Shown: piece by piece, positions 611 through 50,239 of the stretch
How positions within the stretch are numbered: the stretch's first letter is position 1
Layout: each line of letters begins with the position of its first letter
Assembly: GCF_021347895.1 (NCBI RefSeq)
Contig: NC_067116.1
Coordinates: forward strand, 42,169,628-42,233,627
Reading direction: 5' to 3'
From: Acanthochromis polyacanthus
Taxonomy: Eukaryota > Chordata > Actinopteri > Pomacentridae
Length of the DNA stretch: 64,000 nucleotides
Notes under the pieces: generated by a model
What the model saw: the letters and a program-made list of their open reading frames with translations, nothing else
What the model was told of the DNA's origin: nothing
Databases searched by the model: none
Position numbers and translations under genes: made by a program

Positions 611-674
611 CATGATATAATGGCGCTGCATCTCCGACTTCTCGCTGGCCAACTTGTCGCACTCGAGCTTCAAA
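611..674 (-). CDS. tle4: Groucho/TLE co-repressor, exon 3 (Q domain)
   Basis: This 64-nt exon encodes SLKLECDKLASEKSEMQRHY followed by IM, nearly identical to the start of the glutamine-rich tetramerisation (Q) domain of vertebrate Groucho/TLE proteins. These nuclear co-repressors bind TCF/LEF and many other transcription factors and recruit histone deacetylases. The acceptor CTCCAG precedes 674 and the donor GTGAGT follows 611. The first base completes a serine codon begun by AG at the end of exon 2 (AG|T), so the phases agree. As I recall it, the length matches human TLE exon 3. The next exon (YYEMSYGL...) would lie left of the window. TLE4 is preferred because the SLKLEC form here is combined with ESCDRIK-like sequence in exon 2. 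Neighbouring gnaq also fits human 9q21. TLE1 or TLE2 is not excluded. The family call is near certain; the paralog call is about 0.6. Confidence 0.92.
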
Positions 675-6473: not shown

Positions 6474-6562
6474 CTGTGGTATTGTGCTTGAAGAAACTGG
6501 AACTCATCCTTGATCCTGTCACAGGAGTCAGAGGTTGTGAATTTCAGCTGCTGCGATGAGGC
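6474..6562 (-). CDS. tle4: Groucho/TLE co-repressor, exon 2 (start of Q domain)
   Basis: The 89-nt exon encodes ASSQQLKFTTSDSCDRIKDE and then FQFLQAQYH, which matches the conserved N-terminus of TLE proteins directly before the exon 3 peptide. The donor GTGTGA follows AG at 6474, so the split serine codon continues in exon 3. The acceptor is GGCAG ending at 6563, in frame. Two further AGs inside the exon (new starts at 6550 or 6547) would remove four or five residues in frame, so the precise 5' edge is not settled. Exon 1, expected to encode MYPQ or MFPQ, was not found between here and 31 kb. Family near certain; paralog as argued for exon 3. Confidence 0.9.
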
Positions 6563-12357: not shown

Positions 12358-13420
12358 AATGTAGGACAATCTCTAATTTGATTCTGCCCTGCTCCTTTGA
12401 GACGTAATTAAAGCATTAAAAAGCTTTGTGCGCTGCCGAGGCAATTGAGACAGTCTTCAGCGAATAAATGGGATTCATCGTTTCAGGAAATTGCTGCCCC
12501 ACCCCCATCTCCCACCCACCCAAACCCAAAGCCCACTCATCGCCACCCTGAGCACAAACACACACACACTGTTCCTGGCCTCATCATCTGGTCCAATCCA
12601 TGTGAAATCTACTGTGAACCATAATGTCTGTTTTAAATAAGAATCAGGATAAGGCTGTTTCTGCTCCAGAGATCAGTCGACAAAAGCAACGGGAAGGGAT
12701 GGAGATTACAGAGCGGGGTCGGTGGTGGTGGGGGGGGTCGGCTTTACACACACACACAGATCACAGTACAGTGATTAGACACACCAACAATGCATGAATA
12801 CAGTAGAGCGTTTAGACACACAAGCAGACAACAGACACGAATACACAACAGAGACACACACACAATAACAGCGGGATGCGTTGGAAAACATCCTCCTCAG
12901 TATAAATCCTGCCTGAGGGTAGCGGCAGTGTGGGGATTGTATTTCCTGGAGCACTGCCTGACTGTTTACATCTCAGTCGGAGTGTGTTTGCGTGTGGTAT
13001 ACGTGTGTGTGTGTGTGTGTTTTGTTTGTTGGGGGGGTGGGGGGGATGGAGCCTTGGCATTGTAATCACTCACTAATGACTAGATGTTATCTCACTCCCA
13101 CTTTTAAATGAATGCAGAAGATGCACGCTGACGAGCTGTTGGCCTATTTCTCAACGCCAGGTTGTCTGCTCCATAGCAACAGTCTCAAGGATGCCATTTG
13201 AGCCGTCTGTCTCTTCCGTCCACCGCAGATTCTCACCGTCAAAAGGCAGAATCGCACACATCATCATCCAAAATGACTTAAAACAAAAGACGAGCAGTAA
13301 CCACTTTTACTTGACTTTGGAGAAGAGATTACAAACTTGCAGGGGTGTGAGAGCAGCATGTCTGCAGTCAGATGAATAAAGGATGAACCGGCAGCATTTA
13401 TCTCAAGACCGTAGTACAAG

Positions 13421-13995
13421 TAGCCTAGCCATGCTATACCCATGTTTCTGAAGGCACAAGGGTCTAGGGCCGCTCGACAGGGAGGGAGGCGGGCTAAAAG
13501 GTTTTCTTTCAAATCCCTCTGCAGCAATTGGGTAGGTATACAACCAATCAGCGCAACGAATAGGCTGACGGAGTTCCGAGAGCACCGGCGGATTGTGGCT
13601 AAGTCCCATTAGCTTCCCAACCAGCAGAGCCAACTGGTATATTAAGGATTTGCCATATCCCGTCGGCATAAGTCCAAATACGTCTTTCTTCTCAATGAAA
13701 CACTTCAATGCCGTCCTTTGTTTATCTTTCAAGTTGAACTTTAGCTTCAAATCTTTAAGGGCTGTGGCCAAAGCCAAGTCGAAAGATAACTGTTTATTGT
13801 GCGTCAGTTGTTTCTGTCAGAATCATCGCTCCTCTGTCGTCACTTCGTTACGCCCGCCTTCTGACTCTACACTTCATGGTGATTGGTCCGGCCAGTTTTA
13901 GGAGAATCCAGCCTCGAGCCTTATGGAGGGTAACTAGACCCACCCTGGCAGAGAATTAAATTCGTTGCCGTGGGTTGTCTAGTGCGGCTAGGCTA
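13421..13995 (-). mobile_element. Small transposon carrying a RecQ-like helicase gene fragment
   Basis: The ends are inverted repeats, TAGCCTAGCC at 13421-13430 and its complement at 13986-13995, with weaker matching continuing inward for about 14 bases. Directly outside are near-identical 9-bp direct repeats, TAGTACAAG (13412-13420) and TAGTAGAAG (13996-14004), read as a target-site duplication. A 9-bp duplication is typical of Mutator-like elements, but the short termini do not prove that family. The inside is mainly a fragment of a superfamily 2 helicase, listed separately. No transposase is visible, so it is non-autonomous. Confidence 0.72.
13590..13830 (-). pseudogene. Fragment of a RecQ-family DNA helicase, N-terminal motifs only
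   Basis: The minus-strand frame reads LKLKFNLKDKQRTALKCFIE, then KKDVFGLMPTGYGKSLIYQLA. This is the Q-motif region followed by Walker A (motif I, MPTGYGKS) as in RecQ/WRN-type ATP-dependent helicases. After LIYQLALLVGKL the similarity stops and the frame runs into unrelated sequence. DEAH and motifs III-VI are missing, so it cannot be an active helicase. It lies wholly inside the inverted repeats of the small transposon at 13421-13995. It is therefore either a deletion remnant of a helicase-coding element or a captured host fragment. Confidence 0.75.
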
Positions 13996-22080: not shown

Positions 22081-22452
22081 ACACAGCACCACAACACAGC
22101 ACCACAACGCAGCAATACAATGCAGCAACACAACATAGCACCACAACGCAGCAACACAACATAGTACCACAACACAGCAACACAACGCAGCAACACAACA
22201 CAGCACCACAATGCAGCAACACAACATAGTACCACAATGCAGCAATACAATGCAGCAACACAACATAGCACCACAACGCAGCAACACAACATAGTACCAC
22301 AACATAGCACCACAACGCAGCAACACAACACAGCACCACAATGCAGCAACACAACATAGTACCACAACGCAACACCACAACATAGTACCACAACACAGCA
22401 ACACAACATAGTACCACAACACAGCAACACAATGCAGCACCACAACACAGTA
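22081..22452. repeat. 13-bp minisatellite, about 28 copies
   Basis: Tandem units follow ACAACRYAGYAMC (13 bp), with substitutions but almost no length changes. Because 13 is not a multiple of 3 and the units contain no stop on the minus strand, all three minus frames stay open, giving 137-221 codon Cys/Val/Leu frames. These are artefacts of the repeat. Confidence 0.93.
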
Positions 22453-22790
22453 CCGTGATGCGGCCTTGAGTCGAAGTGTGCGTGTTCAACAAGAGAAGGG
22501 CAGCACCAGTCTACACCCCTCCCTTTCAACCAACACCAAAGCATTTTGACAATCATCCACTGTGGCCCTTCACAAAATCAACATCACCTGTGACCCGTGG
22601 CCTCAACTCGGCCACTCAAAAGCCGGGCCTCCTGCGGGGTGGTGGCGCTCGGAGGGGGCCGTGTTTGTCATGCTAATCAGCTGGCCTAACCTTGGCGACC
22701 CAGACATCTGCTGGCCTGCGTGTGTCAAGCCCCACATTCAATTTGTCCCCCAGATACAAAAAGCAGATAAGACCCTTGAGGCTGGTAAGA

Positions 22791-34906: not shown

Positions 34907-35830
<924 letters not shown>

Positions 35831-36247: not shown

Positions 36248-36448
<201 letters not shown>

Positions 36449-40647: not shown

Positions 40648-40944
<297 letters not shown>

Positions 40945-45928: not shown

Positions 45929-46057
45929 CTGAAAATGATGCTTTGCAAGTCGAAAGGGTATTCTATGATCCCAGTGGTTGGGATTCGAACCCTAAGCACA
46001 TCCTGTTGGGTTGGTAGATAGGACGGTTCAGCAATACGATCCAGATCACTTAGATAG
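45929..46057 (-). CDS. gnaq: gnaq exon 4b (downstream alternative, GNAQ-like switch I)
   Basis: The exon has 129 nt. The acceptor is a strong pyrimidine tract ending CTCTAG; the donor is GTAGAA, lacking G at +5. It starts with C, finishing Tyr159 (TA|C), then [43 protein letters not shown]. It keeps Arg183 (arginine finger) and Thr186 (Mg-binding). Residue 184 is Ile where human Gq has Val. [12 protein letters not shown] and LQSIIFR are closest to human GNAQ. It has the same length and phase as exon 4a, 527 nt upstream. Confidence 0.95.
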
Positions 46058-46584
46058 CTAGAGAAAGGAAGAACAAAAGACAGAGAGAGAGGGAGGAAAG
46101 AGAAAGTGAAGCATAACAGCAGATAAAGCACACTCCCTCCAAAAGCAAGTGCACCAGTCCAGATGTCACCAAAGAGGACCATTCCCAAGAGTTATGAGGA
46201 GGCTCTGTGACAGTTCACACCACAACCCCACAAGTGTTCTCTTAGAAAGGCAGCTTCATCCCTGATGGCAGCTCCCAAAGACAACATAATCCCCGGTTTC
46301 ACCTTTTGCCCCTGTCAAAGTGCTCAGTGTAGGTTTGCAAGTTGAAGAAAACCAGGAACTTTTAGCTCGACTCCAAACACATGATTACGCCATTTGTAGC
46401 TAATCTTGACGGGGTCTGCTTTCGAGGCCAGTCTTTGAGAGCGTACCATCAGGGACGTGTTAAAGTGCTGAGCCCTGCCGTGCAGCACAGCGTGGGCGGA
46501 GACAGCGGCATCGACGGTTTGGCTGGCCGACCGTTGTGCAGTCGGCCAACCAGAGACTTTATCATCAGCACTTGACACCAGTAC
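46058..46584 (-). other. Intron between alternative exons 4a and 4b
   Basis: At 527 nt, this intron is long enough for both exons to be spliced in, so steric exclusion does not apply. It holds a GC-rich half (about 46400-46560) with a strong hairpin downstream of the 4a donor, described as a separate regulatory feature. No coding exon is present. Confidence 0.8.
46463..46573 (-). promoter_or_regulatory. Stable RNA hairpin next to the exon 4a 5' splice site
   Basis: The inner stem pairs 46519-46531 with 46541-46553 around a 9-base loop: 12 pairs, one of them G-U, mostly G-C. An outer 9-bp perfect pair, 46565-46573 with 46463-46471, can close around it. In the transcript the outer strand begins 11 nt after the last base of exon 4a. 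Possible splicing-control structure; function is inference. Confidence 0.45.
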
Positions 46585-46713
46585 CTGAAGATAATATTCT
46601 CCAGGTCAAATGGGTACTCAATGATGCCGGTGGTGGGCACTCGAACCCGCAGCACATCCTGCTGGGTGGGCACGTACCCTGAAGACGCTATTCGTTCTAA
46701 ACTGCTAAGGTAA
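46585..46713 (-). CDS. gnaq: gnaq exon 4a (upstream alternative, G11/G14-like switch I)
   Basis: The exon has 129 nt. The acceptor is a CT-rich tract ending TTCTCAG; the donor is GTACTG, weak at +4/+5. It starts with T, finishing Tyr159 (TA|T), then [43 protein letters not shown]. Arg183, Val184 and Thr186 are intact. It differs from 4b at 163, 165, 169, 170, 171, 173, 184, 197 and 198 (9 of 43). LENIIFR is the GNA11/GNA14 form, so the exon is not a simple recent copy. No stop or frameshift: it looks functional. Confidence 0.93.
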
Positions 46714-47932: not shown

Positions 47933-48087
47933 TATTTGGTTGAGTCGGAGAGCTGGTACTCTCTCCTGCGATCGTATGCCTCCTGGATGCCGGGGTCGGC
48001 CCAGAGCATCTTTATCGCTCCGATGTACGGCTGATCGAATGATGAAACCTTCTCCACGTCCACCTCGCGCACCACCTGGGCATTATT
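47933..48087 (-). CDS. gnaq: gnaq exon 3 (helical domain)
   Basis: The exon has 155 nt, acceptor CCTCAG, donor GTACGT. It encodes [20 protein letters not shown] and on to [21 protein letters not shown], then TA, the first two bases of Tyr159. This is part of the alpha-helical domain that closes over the nucleotide. SDSTK is the GNAQ form. Because it ends in TA, joining it directly to exon 5 (starting G) would make a TAG stop. Confidence 0.97.
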
Positions 48088-50054: not shown

Positions 50055-50239
50055 CTTGTTCTGCTCGTACTTGTAGCCGATATTGAGGGTCTCCGTGGCC
50101 CGGATCATGGCCTGCATCGAGGTGAAGATGTTCTGGTAGACGAGTTTAGTGAAGCCCTTCTTGTCCTCATCTGTGTAGCCTGACCCATGGATTATTCTCA
50201 TCTGCTTGATGAAAGTGCTCTTGCCACTCTCTCCAGTAC
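50055..50239 (-). CDS. gnaq: gnaq exon 2 (P-loop)
   Basis: The exon has 185 nt, acceptor TTTCAG, donor GTGTGT. It starts GT, finishing Gly46, then [56 protein letters not shown] and YEQNK. It has the phosphate-binding P-loop GTGESGKS and linker 1. Differences from human GNAQ (T68, K73, S and T in helix [11 protein letters not shown]) are conservative. Confidence 0.97.

Follow-up and report, generated by a model that had tools for sequence, protein, structure and literature searches.

Tandem copies of exon 4 in gna11a of Acanthochromis polyacanthus: an instance of the Gq/11 exon 4.1/4.2 pair

Alternative copies of exon 4, termed 4.1 and 4.2, have been described for the Gq/11 family of G protein alpha subunits: coelacanth and gar have them in both GNA11 and GNAQ, and teleosts in GNA11, whereas teleost GNAQ is reported to be without the pair, one variant having been lost (Lokits et al., 2018, PMC5896119, here and below as far as the accessible parts of that article go). 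The same work dates the exon 4 duplication earlier than the 2R (two-round) genome duplications and ascribes to the exon 4 segment contacts with G-beta-gamma, RGS and PLC. Here we analyse a 64,000-nucleotide (nt) stretch of Acanthochromis polyacanthus NC_067116.1, called the window throughout and supplying all coordinates, which contains exons 2-7 of one Gq-class G-alpha gene on the minus strand, exon 4 being present twice. The pair belongs to a kind already described, being the exon 4.1/4.2 pair known from the Gq/11 family, here in teleost gna11a; the family, the exon and the presence of two alternative copies are the same, and teleost GNA11 is named in the earlier work. An initial annotation of this DNA, which knew of no such description for vertebrate GNAQ, is superseded on that point, and what is new beyond the accessible account of Lokits et al. 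is only the species and the DNA detail.

Two intact copies of exon 4

The exons, in transcript order, are as follows; those other than exon 4 were placed by tblastn with parts of human Gq and by the joined frame, and the two copies of exon 4 by splice sites, frame and translation.

50055-50239, minus strand: gna11a exon 2
47933-48087, minus strand: gna11a exon 3
46585-46713, minus strand: gna11a exon 4a (A type, first in transcript order), 129 nt
46058-46584, minus strand: intron separating 4a from 4b, 527 nt
45929-46057, minus strand: gna11a exon 4b (B type, second), 129 nt
40759-40888, minus strand: gna11a exon 5
36292-36445, minus strand: gna11a exon 6
34907-35097, minus strand: gna11a exon 7, coding part up to the stop codon

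Both copies are preceded by an AG acceptor (...cccccttctcag at 4a and ...cctttctctag at 4b) and followed by a GT donor (gtactg and gtagaa, respectively). Exon 3 ends in TA, and the first base of either copy, T in 4a or C in 4b, completes a Tyr codon; both copies end in AG, which the first base of exon 5, a G, turns into an Arg codon. With the first base of the first codon, contributed by exon 1, assumed to be G, the joins 3-4a-5 and 3-4b-5 are both open through to the end of the protein (...KEYNLV). The tblastn search found two copies of exon 4 in the window and no third, nor did it find exon 1 there, which probably lies outside, more than 13.7 kb upstream of exon 2. The locus therefore has two homologous coding exons in tandem, matched in length and phase, as expected of mutually exclusive exons; the doubled exon is exon 4, with the borders of the 4.1/4.2 pair and with matching split codons in 3, 4a, 4b and 5. 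The coordinates and anatomy first assigned to the pair (two exons of 129 nt, 527 nt apart, with AG and GT sites, in the same phase and open) stand.

The two copies differ at 43 of 129 bases, distributed 10, 4 and 29 over the first, second and third codon positions, and at nine of 42 whole residues; the initial annotation had the nine differences right but set them against 43 residues. When the split codons are included, the 44 codons comprise 23 silent differences, nine that change the residue and 12 identities. A comparison of the dN/dS type, which had been proposed as a check and was run between the copies, gave pS of 0.94, with dS saturated, and pN of 0.13. Because silent sites are saturated, the copies must be old. 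When 43 substitutions were placed at random on exon 4a, which is a crude model, none of 20000 trials gave nine or fewer changed residues (mean 25.6), and 3948 were free of stops. Clear likeness between the copies ends at the splice sites, since ungapped comparison of the flanking 60 bases gives 25 of 60 equal before the exons and 14 of 60 after. The excess of silent over changing codons indicates that both protein products have been retained by selection, as had been proposed, and 4a and 4b are both intact and maintained.

Lokits et al. (PMC5896119) report losses of one copy in several lineages, and one of the two exons here could be a remnant that transcripts rarely or never include. Both copies are open, however, their splice sites are kept, and 23 of their codons differ silently against nine that change the residue, so that we regard this explanation as unlikely.

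Gene identity

The initial annotation named the gene gnaq. In a tree of 47 proteins from which exon 4 had been removed, the window gene instead falls in a gna11a clade (10 rows, support 92/94) with Danio gna11a and Leuresthes GNA11, and this clade is nested within a ray-finned GNA11 set that includes gar (20 rows, 100/96), apart from five teleost gnaq proteins. A constraint uniting the window gene with these five was rejected by the approximately unbiased (AU) test (p 0.0025), for groups that were defined only after inspection of the tree. Two exon-like stretches matching TLE/Groucho lie downstream of the gene on the same strand:

611-673, minus strand: TLE/Groucho-matching stretch, in an open reading frame (ORF) with a Pfam TLE_N match (E 4.5e-09)
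6476-6550, minus strand: second TLE/Groucho-matching stretch

In two public cyprinid models (P0029 and P0034), gna11 is fused directly to the same TLE peptides as in the window. Because of the tree built without exon 4, the rejection of the gnaq grouping and the TLE synteny, the gene is gna11a and not gnaq.

A teleost gnaq carrying the exon pair, which would contradict Lokits et al., is very improbable on this evidence, even though 4b is the same B-type exon as that of mammalian GNAQ and phmmer ranks PDB chains of Gq above those of G11 with either exon. The scores are 652 against 631 bits with 4b and 642 against 638 bits with 4a, so that the gap drops from 21 to 4 bits when 4b is swapped for 4a. 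These chains we take to be mammalian, and for gene identity we place more trust in the tree of fish proteins than in the ranking of PDB chains.

Elsewhere in the window, an ORF on the minus strand (13406-13816) has a weak DEAD-box helicase match (Pfam PF00270, E 1.1e-06) and is possibly a transposon or RecQ-like remnant, and a minisatellite array with overlapping periods of 26, 39 and 65 nt occupies 22081-22454. Rfam gave no match in the window.

Use of the two copies

From the sequence, 4a and 4b are most likely used as alternatives, and we infer that each transcript carries one or the other exclusively. An old duplication of exon 4 would have left two intact copies of which a transcript would normally take one, so that two G-alpha-11 proteins would be made, distinguished by nine residues of the segment that runs from helix F and linker 2 through switch I to strand 2. 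We put the probability of this reading, the known exon 4.1/4.2 pair in gna11a with one copy normally taken and two G-alpha-11 proteins made, at roughly 0.8. At least one copy is required, because skipping both joins the TA of exon 3 (47933) to the G of exon 5 (40888) and creates a TAG stop; this junction may serve as an inherent safeguard in any Gq gene that has kept these split codons. Inclusion of both, on the other hand, keeps the frame, since 129 is a multiple of three, and exclusion would thus need a regulated choice of splice site.

Related proteins were compared as 214 sequences, the best 120 from each of three protein searches with overlapping sets; the gene models behind them were for the most part predicted automatically and are no proof of exon use. 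Two copies of exon 4 lie 43 residues apart in 77 of the 214: 35 vertebrate proteins (selected by a filter that requires A before B), 40 arthropod proteins, P0134 and P0138. The last two both fall outside the filter. P0138 is an arthropod pair; P0134, from Triplophysa, was left out of the pairs because its sequence reads like a gnaq model that continues into an exon resembling gna14. As had been proposed, models from other species were consulted for the pair, and it is present in the same order, A then B, in Danio gna11a, Leuresthes GNA11, Atractosteus GNA11 and others; 4b is identical over 42 residues to the B exons of Leuresthes and Sphaeramia. Single-copy models also exist among fish, with A alone joined to exon 5 in P0099, P0181 and P0183 (all closer to GNA11/GNAQ than to GNA14) and B alone in others, for instance P0028 and P0034.

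Weighing against the reading favoured here, besides the ranking of PDB chains given above, are the 35 vertebrate models that include both exons, by virtue of which A and B may be included jointly. If both were normally included, the product would be a G-alpha-11 with a doubled 43-residue switch I segment, a form that the frame permits and that is seen, among the 214 proteins, in those 35 vertebrate models and in at least 40 from arthropods. The nucleotide pocket would then have a second switch I and catalytic arginine at its centre; the models are largely automatic predictions, alongside which single-copy fish models exist; and in the accessible part of a study of insects a mosquito Gq transcript with both exons, 43 residues longer, is regarded as a premature transcript and was not found in Lygus (PMC4553527). 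Regular inclusion of both exons therefore seems quite improbable. The other points against are that our proposal for how the choice is regulated draws solely on base composition and one fold, and that in three duplex tests long-range pairing within the introns was no better than in shuffled sequences (7, 29 and 28 of 40 shuffles as good).

That proposal concerns two elements in the intron between the copies:

46058-46137, minus strand: pyrimidine-rich tract upstream of 4b, candidate regulatory element (80 nt, 0.79 C+U)
46520-46552, minus strand: predicted RNA hairpin of 14 pairs, some of them G-U, 32 nt past the donor of 4a

The acceptor of 4b is the most pyrimidine-rich of seven compared (0.79 in 80 nt, against 0.56-0.69 for the others). 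Of four segments tested for local folds, the one after 4a gave a z of -3.28, with two of 200 shuffles folding equally well, and the other three were unremarkable (z of -0.06, -0.61 and 0.32). The likeliest control would be exerted at the CU-rich 3' splice site of 4b by a factor that binds pyrimidine tracts, perhaps assisted in the choice by the predicted hairpin past the 4a donor; base composition and a single predicted fold suggest such a regulator. Two other mechanisms were set aside. Steric blocking between 4a and 4b is disfavoured by a spacing of 527 nt, which is too long, and a distant branch point of the OGDH type, as described in the accessible source, goes with a long AG-free zone, whereas the zone before 4b in gna11a extends over only 73 nt of the 527-nt intron.

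In the alternative proteins favoured here, the exchanged segment contains switch I together with the catalytic arginine, and the G protein concerned has a central role in calcium signalling. In what we take to be the human numbering, the nine differences are at 163, 165, 169, 170, 171, 173, 184, 197 and 198, presumably in helix F and linker 2, at the residue after Arg183 and in strand 2; position 184 has Val in 4a but Ile in 4b. Arg183 and Thr186, in the same assumed numbering, are present in both translations, as the initial annotation had it. The isoforms would be expected to differ in function, the nine residues likely providing a modest tuning of exchange or of partner choice, and two natural versions within one gene offer a ready experiment on such tuning.

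Exon types across vertebrates and known parallels

A tree of exon 4 alone (42 columns, 85 rows) gathers the vertebrate B exons in one clade (37 rows, 96/96, with the bootstrap not fully settled) that includes 4b, the shark GNAQ B exons, the fish GNA11 B exons and all 10 of the GNAQ single exons used. Outside it lie the shark GNAQ A and fish GNA11 A exons, seven tetrapod GNA11 exons and two GNA14 exons, and 4a groups with the A exons of fish and gar GNA11 in a set of 13 rows (99/91). The window thus holds one exon of each type, and the layout of the tree fits a duplication before 2R. Both types also occur together in 12 GNAQ-named models from ten shark and ray species:

Shark and ray GNAQ models with both exons: P0006-P0008, P0011-P0013, P0015, P0017, P0024, P0026, P0027, P0033

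These extend the cases of gar and coelacanth GNAQ; sharks are not named in the accessible exon section of Lokits et al.

The same tree raises the idea of an ancestral splice switch that fish gna11a retains whole, whereas tetrapod GNA11 would have been left with the A half only and GNAQ with the B half only. Tetrapod GNA11 is excluded from the B clade at 96/96, and residues 197-198 are EN in 7/7 tetrapod GNA11 and 5/5 shark GNAQ A exons but QS in 10/10 GNAQ single exons and QT in 5/5 shark GNAQ B exons. On the other side, AU tests on the 42 columns reject none of three alternatives: tetrapod GNA11 placed on the B side (p 0.427), tetrapod GNA11 joined to GNA11 B (p 0.265), and shark GNAQ A joined to the B-type exons of GNAQ (p 0.269). 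GNA14 likewise has EN (2/2), so that EN may simply be the older state. We lean slightly toward this split inheritance, which remains a lead. Tetrapods are omitted from the exon tree of Lokits et al. (PMC5896119), as far as its accessible parts show, and literature searches that combined either gene name with exon terms listed no paper making the point. If true, an old splice choice would survive as some of what separates mammalian G-alpha-11 from G-alpha-q, and the fish G11 isoforms could reveal its effect. The locus is mainly of value for confirming a case of the pair under its right gene name, and for suggesting, in a form open to test, that mammalian GNAQ inherited one half of the pair and mammalian GNA11 the other.

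The nearest parallel outside vertebrates is insect G-alpha-q, in which exons 4A and 4B are alternatives, with an eye isoform (PMC5765363 and PMC4553527, in part). The segment, the G-alpha class, the 43-residue period and the alternative splicing are all the same. However, the vertebrate exons separate from those of arthropods, ticks included, at 88/74, which is not decisive, and a constraint placing vertebrate B and arthropod B in one clade is not rejected (AU p 0.375); the two duplications are probably independent, to judge from the exon sequences. GNAQ, GNA11, GNAO1 and "G protein" do not occur in the main text of an article on human tandem exons (PMC9741552). Vertebrate tandem homologous exons that likewise swap a protein segment are described, in the sources as accessible, for OGDH (exons 4a and 4b) and U2AF1 (exons Ab and 3). 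Within the G-alpha family, vertebrate GNAO also has duplicated exons used as alternatives, its exons 7-8 (PMC5896119, in part), but there a pair of exons is doubled and a different part of the protein, the receptor-facing end, is exchanged, whereas in gna11a it is the single exon 4 with its switch I.
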